This document shows positions 11,259 through 47,196 of a stretch of DNA of 48,782 bases, in pieces. Under the pieces are notes generated by a model that saw nothing but the letters and a program-made list of their open reading frames with translations, was not told the origin of the DNA and made no database searches. The DNA comes from a virus. Both the position numbers and the translations under genes were made by a program. The stretch spans positions 64,001-112,782 of the IMG/VR virus record IMGVR_UViG_3300025649_000002. One strand, given 5' to 3'. How positions within the stretch are numbered: position 1 is the first letter of the stretch; every line of letters begins with the position of its first letter.

Positions 11259-11831
11259 TTATATCTCCTCAAATGAACATTTTATGTTTGTATTAATTCT
11301 TCTACCTTTTAATGTTATAGTTCCTGCCTTTGTTTGTTCCTGCAATAGATCCCGAGACCAAGCATAATATCCCGAAGGATCTCCACCATCCCATCCTCCA
11401 TCACCACATGACTTTGCAGTCTGTGAATAATAAAGAATACCTTCTTTATTTTTTAGTTTAATTTTTCCTTCATCATCATCGAATAGACAACCCACTATTG
11501 AAGAAAATATTCTTTCTGTTTCTTCAATTAAATCTATTTCACTTTTTTGAATTAATTCTTTCGATAATTCAATAGATACAATAGTCAATAGATTGTCATT
11601 TTCATCACGCACCCGAGAAACTGATACATGTCTTTCTTCGTTTTTATTTTCATCTACGAAATATCCACTCGCATAATCATTTGAAACGATTCCGAAATCA
11701 ATTCCTTCAACTGCATCAGTAACACGATTAATATGTTGACCATGCAGTGGAGGTAGATGTCCTTTCGCTCGACTCTCAACAATGAAACTACATGAAGAAC
11801 TATTTGATATAAAACCAGTTCTAGATTTCAT
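11259..11831 (-). CDS. SNSSS-tagged protein, 190 aa
   Basis: The N-terminus is MKSRTGFISNSSSCSF, a member of the six-protein tag family of this window. The remainder is unique: a glycine/aspartate-rich C-terminal half (CGDGGWDGGDPSGYYAW) and a preceding acidic stretch (CLFDDDEGKIKL). No signal peptide or membrane segment. Its ATG overlaps the stop of the upstream SNSSS gene (TAATG), with no strong ribosome site of its own, so it is probably translated by re-initiation. Function unknown. Confidence 0.65.
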   Translation of the reverse strand: MKSRTGFISNSSSCSFIVESRAKGHLPPLHGQHINRVTDAVEGIDFGIVSNDYASGYFVDENKNEERHVSVSRVRDENDNLLTIVSIELSKELIQKSEIDLIEETERIFSSIVGCLFDDDEGKIKLKNKEGILYYSQTAKSCGDGGWDGGDPSGYYAWSRDLLQEQTKAGTITLKGRRINTNIKCSFEEI

Positions 11832-12304
11832 TACTTTGTTTCTTTCATTGCGTTACAAAATTCATCATATGTTTTAAACTTATCACGAATCTCGTCCAGA
11901 ATATCATTACGTTTTATCCCGAATTTCTTTTGAAAGTAAGTGATATAATCACTATCCATCATTGTATCGAAATTGCAGATAGGACATGCAATAATCGGAA
12001 CTTCATAATATCCTTCGTCACCTTCGAAGATTTTCTCTTTCACTGTTTCTTTTAGATCTACATCAGAAATATTTTCATCATCTGTTGTATCCTCAAAGGC
12101 ACTGTACAATGTTCTTAATTCTTCAATACTCATATTTTCAATTCTGTCTCTCATATGATCTTGACAAACTGTATGGCCATTTTTACATTCTGCCATCTCC
12201 GCTTCATCCAAACACATATCCATACCTGATACATCATTACCACATACATCACATACAAATGATGATGATGAACTATTAGATACAAATCCTTTACGTTTTT
12301 TCAT
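11831..12304 (-). CDS. SNSSS-tagged protein with RING-like zinc pattern
   Basis: The start is ATG 12304, with AAGGAGA 6 nt upstream; a GTG at 12310 sits inside the spacer. After the tag MKKRKGFVSNSSSSSF come cysteines and histidines in order C18, C21, C31, C40, H44, C47, H50 and, after an acidic helix, C107 and C110 (CPIC). The ECKNGHTVCQDH core and the closing CPIC resemble a treble-clef or RING-type zinc module, although the middle spacing is longer than usual. The zinc-binding call is fair. An E3-like role is speculation, raised because E1-like and E2-like genes lie elsewhere in the window. Confidence 0.6.
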   Translation of the reverse strand: MKKRKGFVSNSSSSSFVCDVCGNDVSGMDMCLDEAEMAECKNGHTVCQDHMRDRIENMSIEELRTLYSAFEDTTDDENISDVDLKETVKEKIFEGDEGYYEVPIIACPICNFDTMMDSDYITYFQKKFGIKRNDILDEIRDKFKTYDEFCNAMKETK

Positions 12305-12320
12305 ATACACTCTCCTTAAA

Positions 12321-13528: not shown

Positions 13529-13986
13529 CTTCCTCCTTTCAATATTTTAACGTACTGAGGTTTCTTTAGATGATTTGGTTCGTTTCGACCTATCGCTAAT
13601 TGTTTCAACACTGTCGAATTTGCATCCTCAATCAAAACCTCATACATTACATCTTTAATATTATTTTTTGTATATATTTTCAATCCTTTGCCTTTTGCCA
13701 TATCAACATCTTTGACTTCAAAAATTCTCCCGCCTGCAAAGTATATCCAATAACCTTTAACATCCATAAATTTATTGATGATAGTTTGAATGAATTTCAT
13801 ACGGTGGGGATGATCCATCGTAAGTTTTTTCACATTTGGTTTTATCAATCCATCCAAACAGTCATCAATCATTTCCGCTATATCATCAAGTCCATCCTTA
13901 TTGGCTCTGTCAATCATTTCCATTGCCCACTTGATAGTCATAGGTCTTTTACATTTTAAAAGTTTAATAATGACATAATTCGTCAT
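13525..13986 (-). CDS. Hypothetical protein, 153 aa
   Basis: The start overlaps the stop of gat-queC by 4 nt. Segments include a helical first half (IKWAMEMIDRANKDGLDDIAEMIDDC), an aromatic strand (YWIYFAGGRIFEV) and a C-terminus ending LKGGR. Tight coupling to gat-queC could mean a related role, but nothing in the sequence shows it. Confidence 0.55.
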   Translation of the reverse strand: MTNYVIIKLLKCKRPMTIKWAMEMIDRANKDGLDDIAEMIDDCLDGLIKPNVKKLTMDHPHRMKFIQTIINKFMDVKGYWIYFAGGRIFEVKDVDMAKGKGLKIYTKNNIKDVMYEVLIEDANSTVLKQLAIGRNEPNHLKKPQYVKILKGGR

Positions 13987-15680
13987 CTTTTTAACGCCTT
14001 TATCTCATTGATTTTCCTTTGTAAATTATTCTTCTTATCTTCAGGTAGTAAAATCCGAGATACGACTTTATAGATATCTAAATCTAACTTTACACCACTA
14101 TCAAGATGCTTTGCATGATGGGGCGTATAATCTTCCGCTATTTCATAAAATCGTCGAGGATCTTTCATCCCTACCATCTTAGCACCCCACCAACTCAGTA
14201 ATCCTGAACCACATGCAGGAAGTCCATTCTTCATACAATTTTGTGGGACACCATTACAATCAACTATTGGTCTATCACAAGAGATTGTATGTTTAATGAT
14301 ATCTTCAATTCCTAATGCCTTAACCAACAACCATTGTTCAGACTTCATCAAATTTGCTAAACAATATAATGGTTGAAATCGATCACCAATCAATGTACCA
14401 TATTTTGTAGTCTGCAAAAATGATCTAATAAAATCTTCACAGTTATCTGGATAAAATCCCGACTCTGCAAGATTCAAAAAACCTCCTAACAGATATACCT
14501 TTTTGTAATTATATTTCATCACCATAGACTCTGCAAGAGTTGCCATGTATGTTAGAAACATCATATTACGACCAGGAACCCAAGCCTCTGTAGTTTTCAA
14601 TGCAACATCAGTTCCTGTACGAACTTCCGCCTCTGCATCAAGAAGCATTGATTGTGCTTCGATATCTTTATAGAAAGACCCTAAATCAAAAACTTTACTT
14701 TTAATTTCCAATTCATTACAGACTCTGTGAAATGCAATTTTCTCTGCCTCACTTCCACGGTGACCATAATCAAAATGACATGCAATAATATTTTTATATC
14801 CCGCATATTTCAATGTTGCTAATGTAACAGAAGAATCAAGACCACCTGAACATGATACCAGACATAACTCATCCTGAGATCTTGGTTTGCTTGAATCCCA
14901 TGTACTTGTTATGTATCGAGGACTGAATTTAATATGTTGTTCAAAACCAGATTCAAGATCTATCATTCTAATAAGAGGACCTTTCTGTGGATTATTATAA
15001 TAATATTCCCACACATTCATTCCTGTTCTTGAACAATCAGTTAACTCCTGAACCACATCACCTAAACAATCATTATCACTCGCTGCCATATATCCTGTAC
15101 CTTTGATATATCCTGTTGCAATTGGTTTGAAATCGTTAACAACATACATCTGACCTTTATTCAAATCAACCATAACAAATGCAAATCCACCTGATAGATA
15201 TTCCATAGTCTTTTTCATGTTTCGACCATTTTTCACATATGCAGCAATGATTGCTTCACTATCTATTTCGGTTGTAAATTTGAATTCGTTATCTTTTGCC
15301 CATTCATCCAACTCGTTATATATCTTTTGACTTACTGCACCATTATGAATAATAACACAACCAGCATTATGTATTGGTTGCATATTTATTTCAGTAGAAG
15401 ATGGTTCAGTCTCTGGTGATGCACGACTAACCATAAGATATAAATCACCAACCTTAGGACCATGATCTTCAGCATGCATCATCATATCAATTCGCGCTTC
15501 AGAAAATGGTCTTGTAGTTCTATAAAAATCATCAACAATCCATCCTTCTACTGGATGTTTTCTAATCAATGCATAACCAGAACCATCAACGCCTCTTTTC
15601 TCACACCACGTCATCATTTTATCTAATACACTAATGGCAGGTACACTTTCACATATATACAATGCTGCTATTCCACACAT
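13983..15680 (-). CDS. queC: Gat-QueC: glutamine amidotransferase fused to 7-cyano-7-deazaguanine synthase
   Basis: The 565-aa product joins a class II (Ntn) glutamine amidotransferase to a QueC ATPase. The N-terminus is MCGI with Cys2 as the expected nucleophile, HNGAV at 112-116 and TEIDSEAI at 137-144. The PP-loop SGGLDSS is at 278-284, followed by CHFDYGHRGSEAE (301-313), VPGRN (368-372), YPDN (410-413) and a Cys set (C468, C475, C482, C490) where QueC has its zinc ligands. QueC converts 7-carboxy-7-deazaguanine to preQ0 with ATP and ammonia, and the fused amidotransferase would supply ammonia from glutamine. Such fusions are known in phages that put 7-deazaguanines in DNA. AAAGGATAG precedes the ATG. 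The next gene is coupled by overlap. Confidence 0.9.
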   Translation of the reverse strand: MCGIAALYICESVPAISVLDKMMTWCEKRGVDGSGYALIRKHPVEGWIVDDFYRTTRPFSEARIDMMMHAEDHGPKVGDLYLMVSRASPETEPSSTEINMQPIHNAGCVIIHNGAVSQKIYNELDEWAKDNEFKFTTEIDSEAIIAAYVKNGRNMKKTMEYLSGGFAFVMVDLNKGQMYVVNDFKPIATGYIKGTGYMAASDNDCLGDVVQELTDCSRTGMNVWEYYYNNPQKGPLIRMIDLESGFEQHIKFSPRYITSTWDSSKPRSQDELCLVSCSGGLDSSVTLATLKYAGYKNIIACHFDYGHRGSEAEKIAFHRVCNELEIKSKVFDLGSFYKDIEAQSMLLDAEAEVRTGTDVALKTTEAWVPGRNMMFLTYMATLAESMVMKYNYKKVYLLGGFLNLAESGFYPDNCEDFIRSFLQTTKYGTLIGDRFQPLYCLANLMKSEQWLLVKALGIEDIIKHTISCDRPIVDCNGVPQNCMKNGLPACGSGLLSWWGAKMVGMKDPRRFYEIAEDYTPHHAKHLDSGVKLDLDIYKVVSRILLPEDKKNNLQRKINEIKALKR

Positions 15681-15699: not shown

Positions 15700-16098
15700 T
15701 TATTCAGAATAATATTGAAGCAATTCTGCTTCATTAATATAATTATCAAATTCACCATTACGCAAATCTGTTTCAACATCACTTCCAGTATCATCTGCAA
15801 ATGAACCTGTAATTATAGCACGTCCAGATTCAATTTCCTTTTTCATCATACGATATGTTGCAACAGAATTTTCATTATAATGTTCTTTAATTTGATCTTC
15901 AATATTTTCATCATCTTTAAATTCAATCCAATTTTGATCTATCCACTCTATCAATTCTTTCATTGTTGTAAGTTTCCACCCGAAATCTTCAAGTGTATTG
16001 TTCGTTCCACGAACCGGTACAGATGTATTAATATTATCAGTTACTGCAATGAATGAAGTACTAGAACTATTCGATACAAAACTTGCTCTCATTTTCAT
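15700..16098 (-). CDS. SNSSS-tagged protein, 132 aa
   Basis: GAGGAGATG precedes the ATG. The tag is MKMRASFVSNSSSTSF. The rest is acidic, with two helices (LTTMKELIEWIDQNWIEF, ENIEDQIKEHYNENS) and a late AIITGSFADDTGSD motif that matches IITGS/IISGT-type motifs near the end of the two following tagged proteins. It lies 20 nt upstream of gat-queC. Function unknown. Confidence 0.65.
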   Translation of the reverse strand: MKMRASFVSNSSSTSFIAVTDNINTSVPVRGTNNTLEDFGWKLTTMKELIEWIDQNWIEFKDDENIEDQIKEHYNENSVATYRMMKKEIESGRAIITGSFADDTGSDVETDLRNGEFDNYINEAELLQYYSE

Positions 16099-16109
16099 AT
16101 ATCATCTCC

Positions 16110-16529
16110 TCAACACATCATTGATCCAGTAACGACACAAGGTGTTTCATCTGGAAATTTTTCTTTTAATGATCCTAAATCCTTGGTGATACTATCTGCT
16201 GAAATAATTTGAGTTTCTGCACAATCATCACCAAGACTGATCCGATTGCCAACCATAATTTTTCCTTTTGGACATCCATCTTCATCAGAATCAGTAATAC
16301 AAATACCTAATTCATTTTGAAATACCCAGAGTAAATCATCCTTTTCATCGTCGATCAATTCATCCCAATTCTTTTGAGTATGTTCTTGAGCAACTTCATT
16401 TTTTAATTTATCTTCGTATACCAAATCAATAATATTCAATACTGTATATTTTGATTCGTCCAATACAAATCCTGTCAGTATGAATGAACAACTTGAACTA
16501 TTTGATACGAAACATGTTCTAGTCTTCAT
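16110..16529 (-). CDS. SNSSS-tagged protein, 139 aa, paralogue of the 16733 protein
   Basis: GAGGAGAA precedes the ATG. The tag is MKTRTCFVSNSSSCSF. The body aligns by eye with the protein at 16733: an acidic core with DEDGCPKGKIMVGN (cf. AEECPVGSVIVGY) and a C-terminal CVVTGSMMC (cf. QIISGTVYDS). The shared Cys-Pro-x-Gly and Val-Gly motifs show true homology beyond the tag. Function unknown. Confidence 0.65.
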   Translation of the reverse strand: MKTRTCFVSNSSSCSFILTGFVLDESKYTVLNIIDLVYEDKLKNEVAQEHTQKNWDELIDDEKDDLLWVFQNELGICITDSDEDGCPKGKIMVGNRISLGDDCAETQIISADSITKDLGSLKEKFPDETPCVVTGSMMC

Positions 16530-16732: not shown

Positions 16733-17152
16733 TTAACTATCATATACTGTTCCGCTGATAATCTGAAGATCATTAATTGAAAAATGATTCTTTATTGGTT
16801 CCAATATTTTAATAATTTCTGCCAATTCCCGAACCATTAAATTACCTTCAGATGTTGAATATTTATATCCTACAATTACACTTCCAACAGGACATTCCTC
16901 AGCATCATCTCGAAAGATTTGAATTTCATTACAATCAATATCGACAACTTCAATAACTTTTAATTTTTCATCACCTGAACATTCAATATAATCTTTTTGA
17001 AATAATTTAATAGAAATAATATCCATCAATTCAACTCCATAAACATTTCCATACAAATCGAAAATGTTACCATCTAATTTATTCAATACAACTCCAACAA
17101 TTACAAATGATGAAGAACTACTATTTGATACAAAACCAACTCTTTGCTTCAT
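16733..17152 (-). CDS. SNSSS-tagged protein, 139 aa
   Basis: AAGGAGG precedes the ATG by 7 nt. The tag is MKQRVGFVSNSSSSSF. Body motifs AEECPVGSVIVGY and IISGTVYDS are shared with the adjacent paralogue at 16110. The central region alternates short beta strands with acidic loops (IECSGDEKLKVIEVVDIDCNEIQIF). Function unknown. Confidence 0.65.
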   Translation of the reverse strand: MKQRVGFVSNSSSSSFVIVGVVLNKLDGNIFDLYGNVYGVELMDIISIKLFQKDYIECSGDEKLKVIEVVDIDCNEIQIFRDDAEECPVGSVIVGYKYSTSEGNLMVRELAEIIKILEPIKNHFSINDLQIISGTVYDS

Positions 17153-22496: not shown

Positions 22497-22545
22497 CTCT
22501 CCTTTTACGTACGTAAATTATAATTTATGTATCTCCTGTTGTGCA
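22497..22545 (-). promoter_or_regulatory. Candidate promoter/operator upstream of the 304-aa gene
   Basis: On the - strand a TATAAT box overlaps the folE stop codon, with TGCACA 17 nt upstream (4 of 6 matches to TTGACA). Just downstream is a perfect 14-bp palindrome TTTACGTACGTAAA, and AAATTATAATTT is itself palindromic. The palindrome may be an operator. The call rests on sequence alone. Confidence 0.35.
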
Positions 22546-23303
22546 TGTGAAATATGCTGATAAAACTCATTTCTAAAATCTTCAGGTGTTCTGAACCCAG
22601 TAGGTCCAGTCTCAAAACGACCACTATAGTCAACCATGACAGCACAGGAACCAGGTTGTTTGATTCCTCTTGCAGTCATACAACCATGTTGACCTGTAGC
22701 ACGAACAATAACGCCTACCGCATCAAGTCCTTTTTGATAAATATCTACCAAATCCTTGACCAATGTTTCATGTAAAATCGGTTGCGCTCCATACAATATA
22801 GCAACTCTCGAAAGTTTTGATAACCCGACAACTTTTGATTTCGGGTAGTATCCAATATCAATCGAGTATACTACATTTTCAAAATGATGAGGGCATAATG
22901 AATACACCCTCACTCCCGGCACTACAATAATTTTCTTGTAGTCTGACGGAAATCCAATCTTTAAAATATCACTACACTTCTTTACAGAATTTATTCCTCT
23001 GCATTTTTCAATATAACTTCTCGCAATTCTTTCAGGTGTTCCTTTGAAATTTTCATCATTTTGCCATTCCAATCCAAATTCTTCTTCAAGTCCTTCAAAG
23101 AGGCTTGTCATACCATCTTTGATTTTCTCATTCCCGACAAATTGTGTTTCTGAATATTGAAGTTCATCAGAATATATATTCTGACAACATTCACACAATT
23201 GGTCCATGAAATCCAATTTTTCCATATCTACATATGAATCAACTGTTTCAATTTGAAATACCACACCACATCGTTTGCAATTCGCATCATGTTTAAAACC
23301 CAT
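22518..23303 (-). CDS. folE: GTP cyclohydrolase I, with N-terminal zinc extension
   Basis: The start is ATG 23303, with GAGGAGG 7 nt upstream and TGATG overlap with the rpoB stop. The 261-aa product has FolE motifs GTPERIARSY, SLCPHHF (zinc Cys137 and His140), VVGLSKLSRV and QHGCMTARGI (zinc Cys208). FolE converts GTP to 7,8-dihydroneopterin triphosphate, the first step of folate and of preQ0. The first 55 residues are extra: C9-x2-C12 and C37, C39, C40 form a separate Cys site not found in standard FolE (190-220 aa). With Gat-QueC and QueD in the window, the preQ0 role is the likelier one. Confidence 0.9.
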   Translation of the reverse strand: MGFKHDANCKRCGVVFQIETVDSYVDMEKLDFMDQLCECCQNIYSDELQYSETQFVGNEKIKDGMTSLFEGLEEEFGLEWQNDENFKGTPERIARSYIEKCRGINSVKKCSDILKIGFPSDYKKIIVVPGVRVYSLCPHHFENVVYSIDIGYYPKSKVVGLSKLSRVAILYGAQPILHETLVKDLVDIYQKGLDAVGVIVRATGQHGCMTARGIKQPGSCAVMVDYSGRFETGPTGFRTPEDFRNEFYQHISHAQQEIHKL

Positions 23304-26300
23304 CAATCATCCTCCTCTCGTACATTATAACCAAGACCCATTGAAAACATGCTAGATTGTAATACCCTTACAGATTGGGAAGTACTATCTTCATCATCTT
23401 TCCATAATAAATGGTCATTTTTAATCATAGACGAAATATATGTATCTCGTTTTTGAATACTGTCTGATTTTATTGTAATAATTTCATTCAGATTTTCTTT
23501 TGCGCCATGACCCACAAGAGACCATATTTCCATTTCACCTAATCTCTGTCCACCTTTACGAACTTTTCCATGTAAAGGTTGAGATGTTTTTGATGTATAT
23601 GGACCTATACCTCTAACGGCACATTTATCTTCTGCAATATGATTCAATTTTTGAAAATACATGTAACCAAATGCTACTTTATTTTTCGTTTGCTTTTTGG
23701 AAATAGGTTCAAAACATGGATCTACATAATTATTTCCAACGTATTCCAATGCGAGTGTTACATCATCTTTCTTAACAGTTTCAAAAGGTATTTGAATAAT
23801 ACAGAAATTATCAAGATCCGACATAAAATCTTCTAATGATGTATTATCTAATTCCAATTGCATTTGTTTCGAATAATAATTCTTACCCGTTTTATCAATA
23901 ATTCGAATGAAACCCATCACATACTCATAAATTTCATCCTTCAAATCATCTGCCATTTCACGACATTGATCTATAACACCCTTCTTTTCTTCAGAAGTTA
24001 CATCCTTATTATCAACCATCAATTTCTGAATTGGTTTCAGACCTTTTTGATACTTCTCAGCAATATTTTCACGAAGAGCCATTGTTGCGCCTGCCATATG
24101 CAATTCAAACAACTGCCCAACATTCATCCTTGATAGAATTCCTAAAGGATTAATAATAATTTCTGCTCTGTTTCCATCTGGTGTTACAGGCATTTTTGCA
24201 TCAGGAACAACCGCAGCAACAATACCTTTATTACCATGTCTATTACCTAATTTATCTCCAACTTTTATTGAACGTTCATAAATTGCAGTAATAGAAACCA
24301 GAACACCTTCAATCGCTTCACCTTTAATTTTGAATCTTTCTTCGTCCTTAGATGATTCATCAATTTCCAAATCAATTAAAAACGTTTCAAGTTCATCCTT
24401 TGTTAAAAAGTTCTTCAATGTACTTACCAAATCTTGTTTTTTACTATTCTGATTCTTAACAAGATTTTTAATATAATGATTGTACTGTTCAATATTGTCA
24501 TTCAATTTACTCACGTATACCTTAACATCAACAACAGTGCAATTTTCATCTACAGTCTTTATAGATTCGGTATCGAATATAACATCAAAATTTCTATCGT
24601 TACCAGTTGAGACTGTTTTGATACGAGCATACGCATCACCCTTTTTCATTCTCTGACCCACTCGTGGTAATGGATCATAACCACCTAACAATTCATCATC
24701 CAAACCTAAAAGAACTTTATCAGGACTAATTTCAAATGTAAGATCTAAATAATGTATAGATGTTAATTTGCCTTCATCCCTAACTTTTTCTGAAATGATA
24801 ACGGCATCCTCATAATTATACCCATACCATGTCATAACAGCAGTTCTTAAATTTCGACCAATTGTAGTCTTACCATCATGAAGGAAATTACTCTCTGAAA
24901 TAATATTTCCTTTTTTGAATCTTTCACCAACTTCAAAATAAGTTTTATAGAAATCAACAATAGACAAACGAGATTTCTTATATCCAATATTGAATGCACG
25001 GCATTTTCTATTATTGTATTGAACTACAATAACATCTTTGTCTTTATAAATCACTGAACCATCACGTTCCGCAATAAATATAAACGATGTATTTTCAGTA
25101 TACATTCCTTCAATACCTGATTGGCACAATGGTAAATCAAACTTCTTCAACATGATACTATGTCTCATCTGAGATGATGCCATCTGCAAACGAGTAGGAT
25201 CATCATGTTCAAGAAAAGGAACATGTAGAATAGAAATTGATACAGGAGTATCTTTCTTTTGATCCGTAAACAAACCATCTGTATCCAATTTTAAATTTGG
25301 AATCAGATATAATAATGTTCCACAATTTTCTCTATCACCTGTATCCGCAGGACAAATTCTTCCTTTCATAGTATGATGAATATCTCTCAAGTATGCAGGA
25401 ATATTATCCTTTTTAAATCCACCAGGACCAGTCATTGCAATACGAGTCAATCGTGCCAATTCATCAATAGGATTGATTGGAGACTCATACTGAATAATAG
25501 GACTTGAATTTGCATTTACAAGAACCACTTTTGAATTATTTGAAAAGGTTGCTGCTTTCGATGACTTCAAAGTAACAATCATATTATAGAAATCTTTACA
25601 TAGAAAACTATACAGATAATACTCTAAAAATCTCAACCTTTTATTTTCTACTGAACAATCATCTAGGAGATTCCGATCAGCCTCTTTAGTCGAATCCTTT
25701 AATTCGAGTGCATGAACCAATTCATCAATAACATTATCAGTGTACATATATTTCTTTGTGAAAATATCTATATCTGCTAAGAGACGTATATTTTCCAAAA
25801 TATCATTTTCACCTCTTCCTCTGAAGAGCTTAGATAATATTTTTCCTTCTACCAGAGTTGGATCAGCAATTGATTTTTTCAAATCCTCAATTAACAGTAA
25901 TATGTTTTCACCAACTTTTGCATTCTCATTATCCAACTTGAAATCAATCTTTACCTGTTCAATTCCTTTCATCGCAATAAGAACATGTGCCAATGGAATT
26001 TTCTTATTGAATATATGAGTTATATAATGAAACCCAGTTTTTGCCGTAAATGATTTTTCTAATTGAACAGACTGAATATTAGTCCTCAATTTAATCATAT
26101 CTTTTCGGGCAATAATAGGTTTATCGAATATTTGCAGAATAGGTATTTTTCTATTTCCACCAACATAGAAATAATTCTGAATCAAATTCGGAATTTCATA
26201 ATTCAATTCAATAGTCTTAGCATCCTTCACCAGAAATTCAATACGCAAGAACTTTGAAATGGTTCTTTTAATTTCTGATAAGGCAGACTTTTTACCTGCT

Positions 26301-26449
26301 ACAAATTCAACTTTTTTCACAATTATATCGTATTGTTCTCCTACCTTTAACATTTCTGTAATCGTTGATACAATCTGATTCTCGTCCCATTCCCGTTTAC
26401 GAAAATTAAAAACATTTCGTTTAGGCAACTTATACTTTTGTAATATCAT
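23303..26449 (-). CDS. rpoB: DNA-directed RNA polymerase beta subunit (phage-type, unsplit)
   Basis: The start is ATG 26449, with GAGGAG upstream; an in-frame ATG at 26497 sits inside the hairpin at 26474-26509. The 1048-aa product shows the beta core: a fork region with GPGGF, LRDIHHTMKGRICPADTG and LEHDDPTRLQMASSQMRHS, then WYGYNYEDAVIISE (about 541-554), GDKLGNRHGNKGIV (about 731-744), PDGNRAEIIINPLGILSRMNVGQ, and the C-terminal GGQRLGEMEIWSLVGHGA (about 965-980). It has no beta-like split, unlike phiKZ- and AR9-type phages in which beta is made of two or more proteins. It is shorter than the bacterial 1342 aa, mainly at the lobe and flap insertions. Works with the RpoC protein upstream. 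Confidence 0.95.
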   Translation of the reverse strand: MILQKYKLPKRNVFNFRKREWDENQIVSTITEMLKVGEQYDIIVKKVEFVAGKKSALSEIKRTISKFLRIEFLVKDAKTIELNYEIPNLIQNYFYVGGNRKIPILQIFDKPIIARKDMIKLRTNIQSVQLEKSFTAKTGFHYITHIFNKKIPLAHVLIAMKGIEQVKIDFKLDNENAKVGENILLLIEDLKKSIADPTLVEGKILSKLFRGRGENDILENIRLLADIDIFTKKYMYTDNVIDELVHALELKDSTKEADRNLLDDCSVENKRLRFLEYYLYSFLCKDFYNMIVTLKSSKAATFSNNSKVVLVNANSSPIIQYESPINPIDELARLTRIAMTGPGGFKKDNIPAYLRDIHHTMKGRICPADTGDRENCGTLLYLIPNLKLDTDGLFTDQKKDTPVSISILHVPFLEHDDPTRLQMASSQMRHSIMLKKFDLPLCQSGIEGMYTENTSFIFIAERDGSVIYKDKDVIVVQYNNRKCRAFNIGYKKSRLSIVDFYKTYFEVGERFKKGNIISESNFLHDGKTTIGRNLRTAVMTWYGYNYEDAVIISEKVRDEGKLTSIHYLDLTFEISPDKVLLGLDDELLGGYDPLPRVGQRMKKGDAYARIKTVSTGNDRNFDVIFDTESIKTVDENCTVVDVKVYVSKLNDNIEQYNHYIKNLVKNQNSKKQDLVSTLKNFLTKDELETFLIDLEIDESSKDEERFKIKGEAIEGVLVSITAIYERSIKVGDKLGNRHGNKGIVAAVVPDAKMPVTPDGNRAEIIINPLGILSRMNVGQLFELHMAGATMALRENIAEKYQKGLKPIQKLMVDNKDVTSEEKKGVIDQCREMADDLKDEIYEYVMGFIRIIDKTGKNYYSKQMQLELDNTSLEDFMSDLDNFCIIQIPFETVKKDDVTLALEYVGNNYVDPCFEPISKKQTKNKVAFGYMYFQKLNHIAEDKCAVRGIGPYTSKTSQPLHGKVRKGGQRLGEMEIWSLVGHGAKENLNEIITIKSDSIQKRDTYISSMIKNDHLLWKDDEDSTSQSVRVLQSSMFSMGLGYNVREEDD

Positions 26450-26465
26450 ACTTAGATCTCCTCTT

Positions 26466-26509
26466 TCAAAAGAAGGGGGATTCTGGAATTTTATCATCAG
26501 AATCCCCCT
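26466..26509 (-). terminator. Terminator-like hairpin between rpoC and rpoB
   Basis: A perfect 12-bp stem AGGGGGATTCTG / CAGAATCCCCCT with a 12-nt loop is followed on the - strand by TTCTTTT. It lies after the rpoC stop and before the rpoB ribosome site. With an imperfect T-run it may terminate partially and lower rpoB mRNA, or it may be a processing hairpin. Confidence 0.6.
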
Positions 26510-26513
26510 ATTA

Positions 26514-29228
26514 TTAGATCTTTTTATTAGTCATTATTTTTTCCAAAAATCCCTCTTCATCGGGAGATTCGTGCATAAGACCATCTATAATATATTCCTT
26601 TGGTCTATGAAATGCCAACGCCAACAACCATGAATCCAACTGTGGTACTGTGAGAATGGATGTCATTGAAGGTGTAGTTGTGTTTCGATCTTTATGTAAT
26701 CTCCATCTCATTGAACCAACTCTCATCATCTGACTTACAATACATTCAAAATGAACTATCAATATTTTCCTATGAGTTACATAGATATTGAATAATTTAT
26801 TCAGAATCTCAAGCGAAGTTAAATTTAAATTACAATGCAGGATAGATCTAACCATAGTTAAATCTGAAATTATATCTTCCTGTTCTCCTCCACCTTTACC
26901 AATTTGGGCAACACCAGATGTATGAAAAGTTCTCATAACCAACTGAGTACTTACTTCTCCTAATGCCTGTGCCGCTAATACTCCTACGTATTTTGTATGT
27001 ATATAATCCAATGTTGTTCCGTAACATCTTCTACATATTTTTGGAGATGTACACATTATAGGGGATCTTAATTTAATCGTTTTATTCAAAACATCTTTAT
27101 AATTTTCCCAAGTAATTTCTTCAAGATTTTTATTTACAAGATGCCAACGACCAACCAAACAACGTGCTTTTTTCATAGTATCAACTGTTAAATCAATTGT
27201 ATCTTTCGTACCACAATCCTCAAGTTCAAGATTCGCCTCTAAATTTGCAGTACCAAATACTGTCTTTCGGGTCAAGTAACCACTAACTCCTGTATTCATT
27301 GCAACATCCAATAGACCCTTTCGAGTTCCATATGATGATGTAAAGAACTCATCAGGAGATAGACCATCAACAAAATTACTTTTAACTGGTTCTGGCATAA
27401 TACGACCTGCCGCATTCGAAACATATCCTCTTGACAATACAATCTGACATGCTTGATCCCATGAACCACGAGAACCAGATTCAATAAATGATGAAGATCC
27501 AAATTCCGCTTTTACCTGATCCATTACTTCTTTACTTTTCAATTTAATGATTCTATCTGATATTGATAAAGAGTCATCTTCATATATTTCTGCTGCTAAT
27601 TTTGCAGAATTTTTCAGAGTCATTCCATCCAATGAAAGTGTTGAACCATTTAAGGTTGTTGTTTCAAATCCCAATCTTTTAATTTTATCTAACACTGATT
27701 TTACCTCATCCAACGGATAAGTTCGAGCAACATCATTTAAAATCAACTGCAAGAATGTTTTGGTCATTGTTTCATTCCAGAATTTATAACCATCTGGTAA
27801 ACACTTATTAAATTTAATTCTTCCTTTATAAGTGTTAACCTTTTCACCATCAGGATATACAAACACATCTTTTTCATCTTCCTCAGGTTCTGTCAATAAA
27901 TACAGTCCCAATACAATATCTTGATTGATTCCGATAATCAAATCACCTGTAGATGGAGATAATAGATTTTGCATCAATGATAATTTTTCTCTACATTCTG
28001 CTTCGGTTTCTGCATACAATGCTCTGTATACCGCCATCTGATCTCCATCAAAATCTGCATTGAATGGTTCACATGCCATGGGATGAACTTGAATCACCAT
28101 TTCTTTATTTGCAACAACTTTGAATGATAACATTCCCATTCTATGCAAAGTCGGTTGACGATTTAAAATAACATGTTGACCATTGCATATCTTACAAACC
28201 AAATCAAACAATTCAAAATCATAGGTTTTCATAAGGTTATCTATATGAGTAATTGCCTCATCATATTCCTTAAATAACCTTTTATCAATCAATGCGTTAG
28301 CGATTTCCAATTTATACAATTCCAATAACATCCAATAAGGAATACCACATTCATCAAGGTTCAATGTAGGACAAGGTGCAATAACGGCTCTTCCCGAAAA
28401 GTCACTCCTTTTTCCTAATATGGCACTCCTAATTAATCCCTGTTTCTTTCCGAATTTTGACAGAACGTAATTGTATAATTCAAATATAAACTTCTGTAAA
28501 TTTCTTGCATGGATCAATTTCAAATTCTCATCTTTATTACTATTGAATAATTCTTCATTCTTTGTCAGAGTGAAATTCAATATCTTCAAATAGAAATCAT
28601 TCAATTTATCTCTCTTCTGCACATCTCTTGTTTTAGATGTCGGACGAAATGCAGGAGGAAGTACAATAACATTTGACATATAGAAACTATCAAGTTTTTC
28701 CTCAATAAATTTCCACATAGGATTAATTTCTTTATCCCTTTCAATCATGAGTTCAACAATTTCTCGAACACTTGCTAACCCATTTTTATATTCTTTGACT
28801 CCCGAAGGTGCCACTTCTTCTTCTATCAATTTACGAAATCTCTTTGTTTTCTCATCATACACATATGAGATTGGCATATCGATAAGTAATAAATCATCAA
28901 TAATTTTCTTTAATGTAACTTTACCTGCTCTACATAATAGATAATACATTATAGGATTCAAAATCGGAAATGGTAATTGTATTCTGCCAAATAGTTTTCT
29001 TCGAGCACTTGAATGATTTATTTCAACACCACATGTAGGACACCTCTGACCAATTTTTGATCGACCATAATAATCTCTACATGCACATGAATAATTCTTT
29101 ATAGGCCCAAATATTTTTTGACTGAATAAACCATCCTCATGGAAACCCTTCTTTGCATAAATCTTATTACTTGTAATAGGAGGTAAATCTTTACAAAGTT
29201 CATCTATATCCAAGAATTGGATTTTCAT
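26514..29228 (-). CDS. rpoC: DNA-directed RNA polymerase beta' subunit (phage-type, unsplit)
   Basis: The 904-aa product has a first zinc finger (C48, C50, C63, C66), LGKRSDFSGRAVIAP (271-285), LNRQPTLHRMGM, and the catalytic NADFDGDQMAV at 390-400 with its three Asp residues. Later come a bridge helix/trigger-loop region SSYGTRKGLLDVAMNTGVSGYLTRK (631-655), a second zinc set (C672, C726, C732, C735) and LAAQALGEVSTQLVMRTFHTSGV (751-773). All core elements are in one chain, so beta' is not split. It is shorter than the bacterial 1400 aa, missing most of the non-conserved insertions. AAGGAGG precedes the ATG, which overlaps the upstream gene by 4 nt. No alpha, omega or sigma gene is in the window. 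Confidence 0.95.
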   Translation of the reverse strand: MKIQFLDIDELCKDLPPITSNKIYAKKGFHEDGLFSQKIFGPIKNYSCACRDYYGRSKIGQRCPTCGVEINHSSARRKLFGRIQLPFPILNPIMYYLLCRAGKVTLKKIIDDLLLIDMPISYVYDEKTKRFRKLIEEEVAPSGVKEYKNGLASVREIVELMIERDKEINPMWKFIEEKLDSFYMSNVIVLPPAFRPTSKTRDVQKRDKLNDFYLKILNFTLTKNEELFNSNKDENLKLIHARNLQKFIFELYNYVLSKFGKKQGLIRSAILGKRSDFSGRAVIAPCPTLNLDECGIPYWMLLELYKLEIANALIDKRLFKEYDEAITHIDNLMKTYDFELFDLVCKICNGQHVILNRQPTLHRMGMLSFKVVANKEMVIQVHPMACEPFNADFDGDQMAVYRALYAETEAECREKLSLMQNLLSPSTGDLIIGINQDIVLGLYLLTEPEEDEKDVFVYPDGEKVNTYKGRIKFNKCLPDGYKFWNETMTKTFLQLILNDVARTYPLDEVKSVLDKIKRLGFETTTLNGSTLSLDGMTLKNSAKLAAEIYEDDSLSISDRIIKLKSKEVMDQVKAEFGSSSFIESGSRGSWDQACQIVLSRGYVSNAAGRIMPEPVKSNFVDGLSPDEFFTSSYGTRKGLLDVAMNTGVSGYLTRKTVFGTANLEANLELEDCGTKDTIDLTVDTMKKARCLVGRWHLVNKNLEEITWENYKDVLNKTIKLRSPIMCTSPKICRRCYGTTLDYIHTKYVGVLAAQALGEVSTQLVMRTFHTSGVAQIGKGGGEQEDIISDLTMVRSILHCNLNLTSLEILNKLFNIYVTHRKILIVHFECIVSQMMRVGSMRWRLHKDRNTTTPSMTSILTVPQLDSWLLALAFHRPKEYIIDGLMHESPDEEGFLEKIMTNKKI

Positions 29229-38980: not shown

Positions 38981-39343
38981 TTATCTTAACCATTCATGAA
39001 AGCTCCATATGAAACTCTTACTGGAGCCCCCTTCTCTTAACATGTAATCATAAACACGACCCAACAGAGTCCCTTCTTCGTCACCAAATGGAATGTATTT
39101 TGTTTCGCCTGGTTTGAATTGATTGTCATCACGTTCTTCAGCATTTTCAATCATGACTTCAATTCCAGGTCTGGGATTTTCATTAATTTCTTCATAAACA
39201 TTTTTAAATTCTTCATCAAATTCTTCCAATAGATTTGCATTTTCTTTTACAAAATCCATTAATGTTTTTTCTTCTGATGATATATTTGTCATGATGAATG
39301 ATGTACTTGAACTATTTGAAACAAATGATGCTCTAATTTTCAT
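38981..39343 (-). CDS. SNSSS-tagged protein, 120 aa
   Basis: The tag is MKIRASFVSNSSSTSF; the first 16 residues differ from the 15700 protein only at position 3. The rest is acidic and helical (LMDFVKENANLLEEFDEEFKNVYEEI) and then has a glycine-rich FGDEEGTLLGRVYDYM segment, ending SFHEWLR. GGGAGG precedes the ATG. It lies 20 kb from the other tagged genes, next to the prepilin-like pair. Confidence 0.65.
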   Translation of the reverse strand: MKIRASFVSNSSSTSFIMTNISSEEKTLMDFVKENANLLEEFDEEFKNVYEEINENPRPGIEVMIENAEERDDNQFKPGETKYIPFGDEEGTLLGRVYDYMLREGGSSKSFIWSFHEWLR

Positions 39344-40770: not shown

Positions 40771-41811
40771 TTATACAAGTTTAAATACAGGACATTTTCT
40801 ACATCCAGGAGCGATATCATCATGTTTCTGAGATGTTAAAGATTCCCTGAATTTCATAGTTTCTTCGCCGTACCATACATCTTTTATGAAATCATCGCAC
40901 GCAACAACATCAACACCATCCCATCCATCTTCACCTTCTGTAAATGAACAATGGACATATCGACCATCAACATTTATATATGATGAAAATAATGATGACT
41001 CACATGGTTCTGCCATTTCAACAAATTTATTAAAATCTTTATGATCTTTAACACATGACAAAAACGTTGGAGCGAAACATGAATCAAAACCTATTCGAGC
41101 AGATTTTGAAAATGCATAATCGATTAATTTTTTATAATCATCCATGTTTCCAACAGAGGTCATTTTATTTCTATCGCCTTTAGGTTTCATCATTAAAAAT
41201 ACAACTGCATATAATTTTGAAAGTCTATCATCGGTAGTCAATTCATCGATTAATTTAAAGCAACTGTCATATGTTTCACGACATAATAACTGATGAATAT
41301 TGACTTGTTTCAATCCCAGTTTTGTCAATTCGTCTACTGCATCATAACATACATCATACTGTGCGTAACGAGACACCGCCACAGCACCACAATAATGTAC
41401 CAATGCATGATATTCCTCTGGTGTCATCCGATCGCCATTAATGGTGACATTTGGAATGACTCCATTCTCACGAGAATATTTAAACATTCTCCACATATCA
41501 GGATTTGCATCAATATCACCAATTCCAAATGCAATCTGTGTAAGATTCTTTGGCATCTTATCGAATATGATTTTAAAGGTTTCAAATGACATAACCTTTC
41601 CTGTTCCCGTATTCGATTTATAACAATGACTACATGGAACATTTTTAATTCCATGACAGATAGTTGAAATTTCAAGATCTAAAATCTCAGGACCTATCGG
41701 ACTGAATTTGGGATCATCCTTGGTTGTTTTTCCCCATCGACAAAATGATCCGTTAACCGTATTAAAAACCCAATTATAATTTTCAGATTTATGAGCGCGC
41801 ATTGTCTTCAT
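40771..41811 (-). CDS. Radical SAM enzyme with SPASM-like C-terminus
   Basis: The start is ATG 41811, with GAGAGGAA about 8-10 nt upstream; the frame also has a TTG at 41841. The 346-aa product has a cluster-binding set C52-x7-C60-x2-C63 (ICHGIKNVPCSHC), wider than the usual C-x3-C-x2-C, and barrel strands typical of radical SAM proteins. The C-terminal Cys set (C270, C288, C305, C337, C340: CESSLF, YVHCSF, ACDDF, CRKC) fits a SPASM extension with extra iron-sulfur clusters. Related genes recur in phages with no known substrate. It is not QueE, which lacks a SPASM part. Confidence 0.75.
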   Translation of the reverse strand: MKTMRAHKSENYNWVFNTVNGSFCRWGKTTKDDPKFSPIGPEILDLEISTICHGIKNVPCSHCYKSNTGTGKVMSFETFKIIFDKMPKNLTQIAFGIGDIDANPDMWRMFKYSRENGVIPNVTINGDRMTPEEYHALVHYCGAVAVSRYAQYDVCYDAVDELTKLGLKQVNIHQLLCRETYDSCFKLIDELTTDDRLSKLYAVVFLMMKPKGDRNKMTSVGNMDDYKKLIDYAFSKSARIGFDSCFAPTFLSCVKDHKDFNKFVEMAEPCESSLFSSYINVDGRYVHCSFTEGEDGWDGVDVVACDDFIKDVWYGEETMKFRESLTSQKHDDIAPGCRKCPVFKLV

Positions 41812-42619
41812 TAATAACAGTTCCTCTCTGTATATGTTCAATATTAATATTTTTGATTCGTGTTTTTACATCATTAAATACATCACAACAATTTTTAATA
41901 TAATAATTTATTTTAATCAGATCGGACATTGTCATATCTTGCCTATCAAGTACAGTCAAACCATCTTTCGTGAAATGAAGACCAAAATACTTATTACCCG
42001 AAATGAATTCACAATCGAGTTTGGCCTCGGTTTTAATTGTTACAGGAACTCCATTAATCACATCTACATGTACAACTTTTACATTGTATTTAATTTCTTT
42101 AAAAGGCCAGTAGTTATCAATATGCTCAACAATAAGACTTGGTAAATGTATAACAATTTGATATCCTTGTGGAATACTAAATCCAAATATCTTTTCAAAT
42201 TGGTTGCAACTCATCATATCTTCTTCTTCACAGTAAAATTCATCATCAGATTCATCTGGATCAGAAATTGATAATTTATATCTAGAGAATCCATAATTAT
42301 CACCACTATTCGCAATATAAATACATCGGCCATGCTTCGCTTTCATTTTCGGAAAAGATGCAATTTTTTTAGTTCCCATTTTAAGAGAATCTTTTATAGC
42401 ACCATCTACAACTTTGTATTTCATTTCCGATAGATTTACAAACTTCAAATCCATATCATTCATACGAATACCAAGAAGTTCTAATGCTCTATCACAAAAT
42501 GATTCATTCTCTGATTTTTTTAAAACTTTGAACCTAAACCTTTTTATATCCATTTTCAATTTTTCATTGGATAAGAAAACTACATCATCTACATATCCTA
42601 TATAAAAACCTATTTTCAT
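41789..42619 (-). CDS. Hypothetical protein, 276 aa
   Basis: AAAGGAGA precedes the ATG. The product has a beta-rich N-terminal start (MKIGFYIGYVDDVVFLSNE), central acidic loop (DPDESDDEFYCEEEDMMSC) and a later strand-rich part (IKYNVKVVHVDVINGVPVTIKTEAKLDC). It overlaps the radical SAM gene by 23 nt, so the two may be functionally linked. No family recognised. Confidence 0.6.
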   Translation of the reverse strand: MKIGFYIGYVDDVVFLSNEKLKMDIKRFRFKVLKKSENESFCDRALELLGIRMNDMDLKFVNLSEMKYKVVDGAIKDSLKMGTKKIASFPKMKAKHGRCIYIANSGDNYGFSRYKLSISDPDESDDEFYCEEEDMMSCNQFEKIFGFSIPQGYQIVIHLPSLIVEHIDNYWPFKEIKYNVKVVHVDVINGVPVTIKTEAKLDCEFISGNKYFGLHFTKDGLTVLDRQDMTMSDLIKINYYIKNCCDVFNDVKTRIKNINIEHIQRGTVINEDNARS

Positions 42620-43477: not shown

Positions 43478-45856
43478 TCAACTTAGAATTTTTTCCTCAA
43501 CATGCCAACCTTTTTCATCATAAAATTTTCGTCGATACTTTGATCTATCTTTCATTTCTTCACACCCAGTATCAACAATATCTATGACAACAGGCATTCT
43601 TTTATTATCACATGTCCTAACAACTCTGCCCACTGCTTGATCTATATTACTAACTGGACTACAAAATACAATTGAATCAAGACGAGGAATATCCAATCCA
43701 TCCCTTGCCTTTAAATATGTGGAGAATATAATACGTTTCATCAACATATCAATTTGATCTGCATCACTCATCGAACCAACATATAAACTAGAATCCCGTT
43801 TCTGATGTTTCACTACTTTTCTTGCGGTTTCTAATACATTTATTCTCTCCGATAATATAAGAGCAAACCTTCCAGAAGTATCAATTTGACGTACAATTTC
43901 ATTTAACATATTCATGAATTTTTCAGACTTCCACATCCATTTCAGATATGTGCCTTTACTAAATCTGCCTCTATTCTTATTACCTTCTTTCAAATACAAT
44001 TGATTTATTCTAAACTTATACTTCTTCATTATTCCATGGTCGATATATATCATTATGACTTTTGGGGTCATTGTTTCTGCTTCACCTTCCGGTATGAATG
44101 TATCCCCTAAATGCATACTCATAATATCTGTATTTCCATCGGTTCGATCTGGTGTTGCAGACAAACCAAAATATCGATACGCTGGTGTGTATAATGAAGT
44201 CTTTGAAAATTGTTCAGCAGAGATACTTGTATGACAATTATGCATAACATAACCATCACATACAAATAATTCATCATTCGAATCAATACTTATATCATAT
44301 AAAATACGTTTTCCAATATTTTCAATTTTAATAACTTTATCCATTTCCATATTATCATGTCTATTCATTGTATTTCGAGTTGATAATATGGTATTTGATT
44401 TGAATGGTTTACCAAATAATAATATAAATCTTAATGTATTTTTCCCATCAATTATTAATCTATATAAATTATTTGCTGGTTTTTCACGAGATATACATGT
44501 AATAGAACATCTAATTCCATAATATGCTAACATATCTCTAATTTGCAAAATTGCATTTTTTGAAGTTAATTCCAGACCAATTTTATATGAATCATTCTGC
44601 AGATAACCATCAGAATCAAATAGTCCTTTTATTACCCCAGGACTATTTTTTCTATACAATTTTTCATTTATTGAAAATGTTCCACTCTTTTTACCAATTT
44701 GAAGTTCATATTTTTCAATCATATTCTTTGTATATTCTTTCGAAAATCCGATTGTCAAATCACCTCTTTTATTCTCTTCTATATTATGAATTCCTTCAAA
44801 TAACATTTTGAATTTATCCACCCATTCGTATTTTTTCTTTCTATATGAAAATGCCATTTTTTTATGGCATTCATATCCATCATTTGCAATATGTCCATCT
44901 CCATAATACAACCCAATTAAATATTCTTCATTATCTATTTGAACTGTATCATGATGAGATTTCATATAAAATAGAAAATTCTCACATTTTGAAGATTCTC
45001 TACATTCATAATAATATTTATTTTTTGAATAATATTTTGTCAATACAGGATGATCTGAACTCATTATAAAAGTTTTTCCAGATTTTAAAGTTATCTTCAC
45101 AGATTCCTTTTCAGTAATTCTTATTGCATTAACTCTAATATATTCATTTTTATTATTTCTAATATACTCCCCAATTTTTAGATTTTTTAATTTAATAGAT
45201 TCATTTTTTGTATAAACAGGATGTTCTCCATCTATACATTCATCCCAGATCGCCATTCCAAATTTTGCATCACGTATTTCTTTGATAAATTCAATTCCCT
45301 TTGTTTTAATCAATGAACAGAATGTCTGAACTGTTGCTACAATGATTTGTTTTTGTAAGTCCGCTTTCCAATTTGAACTTCTCAACCAACCAACACGATT
45401 TGCATCCATGTCCGAATGTTCAACAATTCTATCAATCCACTGAGTACCTAAACCATTTTTATGGACAAATATAATTGCCTTTTCTCCAACACGACAAATC
45501 GCTTCAATTGCAACAACAGTCTTTCCCTCTCCTGGTTGCATACATAAAAGACCATTTCGATTTTCGGACATCCAATTCATTGCCAACTCCTGTTTTAAAT
45601 TCCTAGGAGTAATATTAGATTTTACGTTTATCGAATGACCAGGAGTGGAAATATCCTGTATCTGATGTGGGACTGAATAGCAACGTGGGAGAAGTATATG
45701 AGATTTGACTTGACCATAATACCATTTAATCTCTTCTTCTTCTACATCCGCAAACGATTTGTGTTTTCTTGTAAGTTCTGAAATCGCATTCAACACCCAT
45801 GGTTCATTTTTTAATCGAATGGGAACCCAAATACACGAATCGCTTTTTAAAATCAT
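43478..45856 (-). CDS. UvsW-like SF2 helicase with intein
   Basis: The 792-aa precursor is a 458-aa helicase plus an intein. Before the intein: N-terminal UvsW-like region, Walker A QPGEGKT (107-113) and motif Ia. The chain reaches IWDE at the DECH box (motif II), and the intein (207-540) is inserted between Glu and Cys. After it come CHTS, LSATPDRTDG (motif III) and QAVGRVVRTCD (motif VI). T4 UvsW unwinds and branch-migrates DNA for recombination and replication. AAGGAATAATT precedes the ATG. Confidence 0.85.
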   Translation of the reverse strand: MILKSDSCIWVPIRLKNEPWVLNAISELTRKHKSFADVEEEEIKWYYGQVKSHILLPRCYSVPHQIQDISTPGHSINVKSNITPRNLKQELAMNWMSENRNGLLCMQPGEGKTVVAIEAICRVGEKAIIFVHKNGLGTQWIDRIVEHSDMDANRVGWLRSSNWKADLQKQIIVATVQTFCSLIKTKGIEFIKEIRDAKFGMAIWDECIDGEHPVYTKNESIKLKNLKIGEYIRNNKNEYIRVNAIRITEKESVKITLKSGKTFIMSSDHPVLTKYYSKNKYYYECRESSKCENFLFYMKSHHDTVQIDNEEYLIGLYYGDGHIANDGYECHKKMAFSYRKKKYEWVDKFKMLFEGIHNIEENKRGDLTIGFSKEYTKNMIEKYELQIGKKSGTFSINEKLYRKNSPGVIKGLFDSDGYLQNDSYKIGLELTSKNAILQIRDMLAYYGIRCSITCISREKPANNLYRLIIDGKNTLRFILLFGKPFKSNTILSTRNTMNRHDNMEMDKVIKIENIGKRILYDISIDSNDELFVCDGYVMHNCHTSISAEQFSKTSLYTPAYRYFGLSATPDRTDGNTDIMSMHLGDTFIPEGEAETMTPKVIMIYIDHGIMKKYKFRINQLYLKEGNKNRGRFSKGTYLKWMWKSEKFMNMLNEIVRQIDTSGRFALILSERINVLETARKVVKHQKRDSSLYVGSMSDADQIDMLMKRIIFSTYLKARDGLDIPRLDSIVFCSPVSNIDQAVGRVVRTCDNKRMPVVIDIVDTGCEEMKDRSKYRRKFYDEKGWHVEEKILS
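44237..45238 (-). mobile_element. Intein with LAGLIDADG homing endonuclease
   Basis: The 334-residue intein starts with Cys (CIDGEHPVYT, block A), has block B SSDHPVL (Ser/His in the usual T-x-x-H place), LAGLIDADG-type motifs LIGLYYGDG (Asp114) and IKGLFDSDG (Asp210), and ends VMHN before Cys+1 of the extein. All residues needed for splicing are seen. It sits in the DECH box of the helicase, so splicing is required for function. Confidence 0.9.
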
Positions 45857-45858
45857 AA

Positions 45859-46746
45859 TTATTCCTTAAAATAATCTTTTATTTTTTTTTGAAATACTGA
45901 TAACATCCCTTCAGATGTAATCTGTGCCCAACTATCAGGAGCTTCCCATATTTTTATAGATGATATACCTTTTAATTTTGCATCAAACATTAATATTTCC
46001 CATAACATAATTAAAAGATTTTCAGCAGTAGGCAATTCAATATAGTCATTTAAACAACTATGATCTAATAAATCGACAATATATTTATTTACAATCTTTT
46101 TCAAATCTGAAAAATCCATTACCATTCCTGATGTATGATTAATTCTTTTCATTATACTTATTTCAAAGAACCATTCATGGCCATGAAGGTTTGCACATTT
46201 ACCATCATAATTAGGAAGAAAATGTGCAGCAGCAAATGAAAATTTTTTCGTTATTGTTACAAATGGAGTTCGAAGTTGGATTTTACCATGGCATTTATCG
46301 CATAACGGTTCAAGATTTGATATTAGAAAATTATCATGATTCCCATCTATATGATGAACTTGAACACTTTTATCAGAATCACATTCTACACAATTTTCAA
46401 TATCTTGAAAGTTTACTAATAAATTTCTACATTGGCGTCCTAAATCTGCCTCTAAATTTAATTCAGTATCAATTTTCAAACATCCATTTATTCTATCTTT
46501 ATATGTACCAGTTTTCCAAAGATCTTTAATACTTTCTGAAACTTTTTGTTTCACATCATCTCTTTTCATAGGATTTGAATCACCCATATTAATATTACCT
46601 TTATTTGTTTTAGAAAGTTTTTCTCTTACAATCGGATCAAAATTAGAACCAAATTGTTTTCTATAATCGGCCACCGTCATATTATGTTTTTTCAAATGAG
46701 TAGCAGTGATCATAAGAAATTCTTTATTACATATTTTACATTTCAT
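45859..46746 (-). CDS. queD: QueD fused to an N-terminal HNH endonuclease domain
   Basis: The C-terminal 130 residues are 6-carboxy-5,6,7,8-tetrahydropterin synthase: FSFAAAHFLPN with His175, GKCANLHGHEWFFEI with Cys184, His188 and His190, a VMDFSDLKKIV segment, LDHSCLND and a PTAENLL helix. The N-terminal part (1-160) has a zinc motif CKICNKEF...HLKKH, a NUMOD-like GDSNPMKRDDVKQKVSESIKDLW block, and an HNH core CVECDSD...VHHIDGN...NLEPLCDKCH. The fusion is one reading frame with no stop. QueD makes carboxytetrahydropterin from the FolE product. The HNH may be a homing nuclease caught in fusion. GAAAGG precedes the ATG. Confidence 0.9.
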   Translation of the reverse strand: MKCKICNKEFLMITATHLKKHNMTVADYRKQFGSNFDPIVREKLSKTNKGNINMGDSNPMKRDDVKQKVSESIKDLWKTGTYKDRINGCLKIDTELNLEADLGRQCRNLLVNFQDIENCVECDSDKSVQVHHIDGNHDNFLISNLEPLCDKCHGKIQLRTPFVTITKKFSFAAAHFLPNYDGKCANLHGHEWFFEISIMKRINHTSGMVMDFSDLKKIVNKYIVDLLDHSCLNDYIELPTAENLLIMLWEILMFDAKLKGISSIKIWEAPDSWAQITSEGMLSVFQKKIKDYFKE

Positions 46747-47196
46747 CTATTCATCCTTTCTGAAATCCTTTAATGTTAAAAGTCTTCCATCATATTGACA
46801 TTTATGATTGAGAAACCAATTCAAATCAAACAAAGTCTTTTCAGAAAATTCACTTCCCCCTGAATGAATTGAATAAGTATCCGTGATTTCATCGCCCATC
46901 TTTATTGCCCACCGTATAATCCATAAAGGATTCTTAGATGGATGAATTAATTTTATAATTTGATATGCAGTTTCTTCTTCCTCAATAACTTCAACTGTTT
47001 TTGAAAAATCAATCAAACGAACTATTGTCCATCCAAATCGTTGACGTCTTACCAATGGTGTTTCTTTATCACTACATAATTTACAATCTATGTCATTTTC
47101 ATCACTTAAAAAATTCACACATTCTTCATTGCAATCAATTTGACATTCAACATCAATACCTGTGGTTTCTTTAAATTCGTATAGTCGACAAATCAT
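46747..47196 (-). CDS. Hypothetical protein, 149 aa
   Basis: The first half is Cys-rich (DVECQIDCNEECVNF, DCKLC), the second half is mixed alpha/beta (RFGWTIVRLIDF, WIIRWAIKMGDEITDTYS). GAGGCG precedes the ATG. No family recognised. Confidence 0.55.
   Translation of the reverse strand: MICRLYEFKETTGIDVECQIDCNEECVNFLSDENDIDCKLCSDKETPLVRRQRFGWTIVRLIDFSKTVEVIEEEETAYQIIKLIHPSKNPLWIIRWAIKMGDEITDTYSIHSGGSEFSEKTLFDLNWFLNHKCQYDGRLLTLKDFRKDE

Follow-up and report, generated by a model that had tools for sequence, protein, structure and literature searches.

The gene at 45859-46746 (minus strand) of the window, which is the 48,782-nt stretch analyzed here from a 112.8-kb virus record (G000:C1:64001-112782), encodes an HNH nuclease fused to a complete QueD and belongs to a family of homing-type elements that have probably invaded phage queD genes at an active-site codon, each carrying its own QueD in frame. 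Homing endonucleases normally sit in introns, inteins or between genes and thereby spare the gene they invade. The family described here points to another solution, namely a fused replacement of the target that is carried along, which we otherwise found described only as C-terminal hybrids in fungal mitochondria. The evidence consists of the fusion and its conservation, short queD stubs in front of the HNH module, the common end point of these stubs, and the decay of the nuclease half in several lineages.

The fusion gene is one uninterrupted frame of 295 codons, as the initial annotation had described it. It starts with an ATG at 46746 that the stop of the preceding gene directly abuts, and a Shine-Dalgarno-like AAAGGA (46754-46759, minus strand) lies within the 3' end of this upstream gene (46747-47196). 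From the N- to the C-terminus the 295-aa protein consists of a MucR/C2H2-like zinc finger (aa 1-32; 46651-46746), a NUMOD3-like linker stretch (aa 50-90; 46477-46599), the HNH nuclease core (aa 113-157; 46276-46410) and the complete QueD domain (aa 161-295; 45862-46266), all on the minus strand. A check for a hidden internal start near codon 160 had been suggested, and no usable one was found: in the window there is no in-frame ATG, GTG or TTG from 45 codons before to 10 codons after the start of QueD, which makes a separate internal QueD start unlikely. Readings of the gene as an intein or as a group I intron ORF were dropped, since profile searches found no splicing domain in the fusion and Rfam gave no intron match around the ORF.

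The QueD half matched PF01242 (E=2.3e-31) and TIGR03367 (98.1 bits, above the equivalog cut-off of 89.25), and H175, C184, H188, H190, D228, H229 and E268 are invariant, the PTPS domain thus possessing the His zinc ligands, catalytic Cys, Asp-His and Glu that define a QueD. A Foldseek search returned QueD matches, E. coli QueD among them, and none that spanned the full-length fusion. The HNH half scored below the Pfam gathering scores (HNH_3, 18.3 versus 24.8 bits; HNH, 16.0 versus 21.4 bits) and its assignment therefore rests on matches to PHROG HNH families (E about 1e-4), on the conservation of C119, C122, H131, H132, N144, C149, C152 and H153 across the relatives, and on an AlphaFold2 model with a mean pLDDT of 85 (92-96 in the HNH core, mostly 94-98 in QueD and below 50 in two linker stretches). 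Despite the Pfam scores, the HNH half is real. The catalytic residues and zinc knuckle of an HNH homing endonuclease are present at the level of sequence and model, and so are the modular DNA-binding parts (zinc finger, HTH, NUMOD) of such enzymes. Regarding the NUMOD-like and zinc-knuckle parts proposed in the initial annotation, the knuckle residues proved to be conserved, while no Pfam model matched the NUMOD part, which resembles NUMOD3 by eye only (GxxNPxxxxxVxxKISxxVxxxWxxGxYxDRING, a family-wide motif).

The N-terminal finger is also weak in Pfam (ROS_MUCR, 21.4 versus 25.4 bits), with C3 and C6 conserved and a pLDDT of 84-88. Three kinds of N-terminal module precede the constant NUMOD3-like stretch in the family: the short MucR-like finger (window, L018 and L019), a CPxC finger with a long helical part (many members) and an HTH (L104, L125 and L134). 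These DNA-binding modules are swapped between members, as in L019 versus L104. The nearest HNHs outside the family are carried by intein-like inserts of the genes for ThyX, DNA polymerase III and deaminase.

Comparison with the QueDs of related phages, which the initial annotation had suggested, revealed the N-terminal HNH in 17 further distinct viral contigs (L002, L003, L018, L019, L020, L021, L024, L026, L027, L104, L106, L107, L110, L125, L134, L262 and L264; 18 members including the window) that are about 30-49% identical and come from different metagenomes. The members were obtained from scans of IMG/VR and all are metagenomic contigs; L105 is a second assembly of L104 and was counted once with it. 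With the same architecture in 17 other distinct contigs, the fusion is not due to chance, and an assembly error that joined two genes, raised earlier as a possible cause, is unlikely. Full fusions were found neither in INPHARED phage records, which gave QueD-only or HNH-only matches, nor in 84,980 prokaryote genomes of GTDB, which gave isolated HNH proteins only, nor in the plasmids of PLSDB. Plasmid tblastn matches to residues 104-275 fall in unannotated stretches and were taken as alignment run-on around QueD. The searches yielded no close sister allele without the HNH, and no description of an HNH-QueD fusion was found in the open-access literature. L002 and L021 resemble the window in their neighbors, gyrase A being upstream and an SF2 helicase downstream. 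The operons of most other members include QueE and, in many cases, FolE or QueC. One such run (L027:3253-8197, on a 162-kb contig classed as viral) combines QueA- and QueF-like genes, QueC, HNH-QueD, QueE and FolE, nearly the whole queuosine pathway, and in L018 (8300-9202) FolE is apparently fused to an N-terminal phosphoribosyltransferase-like domain.

Six of the 18 members (L003, L019, L104, L262, L264 and the more diverged L134) have, directly before the HNH module, the 5' end of another queD as a stub of about 20-28 codons. All six stubs stop at or beside the catalytic-Cys codon (HxGxC..LHGH), which constitutes a fixed insertion site in these relatives. In L003 the fused protein itself opens with a second QueD N-terminus (KASITNVIKFETAHQLTD), whose PSSM score of 16.5 bits was reached by 0 of 20,000 shuffles. 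Separate stubs just upstream of the HNH ORF are present in L019 (MISITRIFTFEAAHYLPQHEGDC; 42.2 bits), L104 (VLTVTRIFRFEYAHRLPEHEGK; 39.4 bits), L262 (MHLVSKTFSFCAAHMLVTSYTE; 24.6 bits) and L264 (VKIGKTYRFEAAHHLPNHRGG, with a GTG start; 30.6 bits), and that of L134 (IVSVTKVFNDISCSHFLKEYQGK) is weak by score. The best score among control regions, the 300 nt upstream of 45 QueD-only genes, was -1.6. The HNH ORF starts inside the stub or just behind it, and queD codons make up its Shine-Dalgarno-like sequence in L019, L104 and L264.

The single sequence nearest to each stub is a QueD-only gene (in L262, the resident queD) and not the fused copy of the same element; the QueD that the element brings is therefore of foreign origin or diverged long ago. 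The L262 stub is identical at 66 of 67 nt to the opening 22 codons of an intact resident queD located just downstream and then diverges at once, and this event therefore looks recent. This second queD (L262:3825-4274), directly behind the HNH-QueD gene, belongs to another lineage and is without the usual Cys. Apart from it, a 3' part was found in L264 only, where a QueD remnant (LSRVRLYETEKCYAEWTP followed by a stop; 33 bits) lies directly behind the fused gene. No stub occurs in the window gene or in 11 other intact members, and the origin of the window gene is therefore read from its relatives, among which it looks like a streamlined member at a later, clean stage.

These observations suggest the following route, in which cleavage, target site and homing, like both activities of the window protein, are predicted from sequence. 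The nuclease half would recognize queD genes without the element and would cut them at or beside the codon of the active-site Cys (HxGxC..LHGH); codons of conserved active sites are among the typical targets of homing endonucleases (PMC3943268). Break repair would then put the HNH ORF at the cut, with its own complete, diverged QueD arriving in frame behind it. Since the element brings a complete QueD, the host would keep a working enzyme even though all that remains of its original queD is a short 5' piece (about 20-28 codons), in some cases together with a 3' remnant or with a further, resident copy. The ribosome-binding site of the HNH ORF would be provided by severed queD codons in at least three of the members with stubs. 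Later, loss of the stub may result in a clean fusion as in the window, or the HNH may decay while QueD stays.

Decay of this kind is apparent in five related QueDs with a dead or shrunken N-terminal remnant (L025, L112, L120, L122 and L130). The catalytic His residues are gone in L025 and L112, L120 has a knuckle remnant left, L130 has the zinc finger without the HNH, and L122 is left with a 69-aa stump without recognizable HNH. Throughout, lineages in which the HNH is dead or gone retain an intact QueD. Among 16 intact members, in contrast, mean identity is similar for HNH (0.51) and QueD (0.50), and the distances of the two halves correlate (Mantel r=0.64, p<0.001). Ahead of QueD, identity amounts to 34% between the HNH-dead L025 and L112, as against 60% between the intact L021 and L110 (Fisher p=1e-7), with no significant difference in QueD identity between the two pairs, which suggests that the N-terminal part is freed from constraint once the HNH is dead. 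The fusion is old and shared, with residues of both halves conserved and the nuclease lost in several lineages. Of the two ideas in the initial annotation, a fixed homing event with both functions kept is the better one. Homing with both functions kept has good support, and insertion scars are preserved in the relatives; "fixed" is only half right, several lineages having lost the nuclease.

A rather unlikely alternative is that HNH and queD were joined once, by an ancient chance event, and that the fusion was inherited vertically and kept because the phage now benefits from the nuclease, which might, for instance, cut the unmodified DNA of the host or of rivals, with the phage itself protected by a 7-deazaguanine in its DNA. 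The constraint on the HNH residues is in agreement with this, as is a DpdA-like protein in 14 of 21 records. A QueD tree of 70 rows has a supported branch (99/85) with 19 of the 21 fused or remnant sequences on one side of it, and joining all 21 in a single clade is not rejected (AU p=0.47). The grouping of the fused QueDs in one clade (98/86) would be expected as well if a single old fusion had simply descended vertically. The tree of the adjacent queE scatters the element-bearing phages (7-10 changes), one clade again not being rejected (AU p=0.25), and the conflict between the queD and queE trees is suggestive only as a sign of mobility. Vertical descent alone, however, leaves the foreign queD stubs with their common end point unexplained. 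Moreover, L025, L112, L120 and L122 retain DpdA and QueD with the HNH dead or missing, and DpdA was not detected in the window genome, either by the TGT family or by the DpdA-like protein of L025. That the HNH part is a structural or regulatory zinc domain without nuclease activity is improbable: the zinc finger does persist in the HNH-dead L025, L112 and L130, but nearly all intact members keep the catalytic His and Asn, and the N-terminal region loses constraint after the catalytic residues are lost. The remaining idea of the initial annotation, that the HNH/zinc-finger part brings the deazaguanine enzyme to DNA, draws on the physical fusion to a DNA-binding nuclease module and is very improbable, as the substrate of QueD is free pterin and not DNA, and L120 and L122 keep QueD without the DNA-binding part.

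The adjoining SF2 helicase gene (43478-45856, minus strand) harbors a 334-aa LAGLIDADG intein (44237-45238; aa 207-540) inserted in the Walker B box at DE|CH. A GIY-YIG-like ORF among the tail genes of the same phage (L016:7580-8284, corresponding to G000:C1:47580-48284) is probably another homing endonuclease. HNH-containing inserts were also observed in QueE genes beside queD (L019:6837-8549, L147:3415-5022 and L187:3399-4958); that of L019 resembles a Cys1...His-Asn intein and immediately precedes the third cysteine of the CxxxCxxC cluster motif. Homing elements seem to have a hot spot in the deazaguanine operon. On the minus strand the window encodes Gat-QueC (13983-15680), FolE (22518-23306) and a radical-SAM/SPASM-like protein (phrog_7293; 40771-41841), and neither QueE nor DpdA was detected in its record. 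The radical-SAM/SPASM-like protein could stand in for QueE, and the modification pathway of this phage is incomplete or employs unusual enzymes. Also on the minus strand are a phage multisubunit RNA polymerase with beta- and beta'-like subunits (23303-29228) and six small proteins (11259-11831, 11831-12310, 15700-16098, 16110-16529, 16733-17152 and 38981-39343) that share an N-terminal tag of roughly KxRxxFVSNSSSxSF on differing bodies.

Invasion of queD by elements that bring their own QueD would account for the odd fusion of a nuclease to an enzyme and would offer a route by which a DNA-modification gene could be swapped between phages. It is about evenly balanced whether the family amounts to a natural "rescue" homing drive in phages, which would target enzyme active-site codons, draw its own signal for translation start from the severed codons and carry a fused, diverged and probably cleavage-proof copy of the enzyme, each invasion replacing the resident queD without loss of function. 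Such a drive would be a testable natural counterpart of engineered rescue drives, and other phage enzymes may then have elements of like design that pass for bifunctional fusions. The fusion of a nuclease to an enzyme need not mean a new combined function.

Compared to known systems, the family shares with the 7-deazaguanine DNA modification of phages 9g and Dp-1 (PMC6884629) the QueD domain and an operon with FolE, QueE, QueC or Gat-QueC, with the difference that the QueDs described there are unfused, without mention of an HNH, while those reported here are HNH-fused. As in the phage Mob-type HNH homing endonucleases, such as MobE in nrdA of phage Aeh1 (PMC2988022), the HNH gene would enter a functionally critical region of a phage enzyme gene; the Aeh1 mobE, in contrast, is unfused, comes without a replacement copy and divides nrdA into two parts, which reassemble. 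The nearest known kind are the hybrids of fungal mitochondrial mobile ORFs, which carry a replacement for the severed gene part, in atp6 of Allomyces macrogynus and in atp6, atp9, cox2 and nad3 of Glomus (PMC3630166). In both, an endonuclease ORF lies within a protein gene and comes with a foreign substitute for the severed part, the inserted copy being diverged and the native part left as a remnant, and some of the fungal ORFs are likewise in phase with the host gene. While the fungal ORFs, with enzymes of the LAGLIDADG or GIY-YIG type, supply a new C-terminus and leave the native 3' part as a remnant, the queD element has an HNH N-terminal of a whole replacement protein and is found in phages, its relatives with a 5' stub and a whole QueD displaying the fungal arrangement in mirrored form. 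Homing elements that substitute part of an invaded gene are a known kind, and to our knowledge of the open-access literature no such element has been described in phages, with an HNH enzyme or as an N-terminal fusion.
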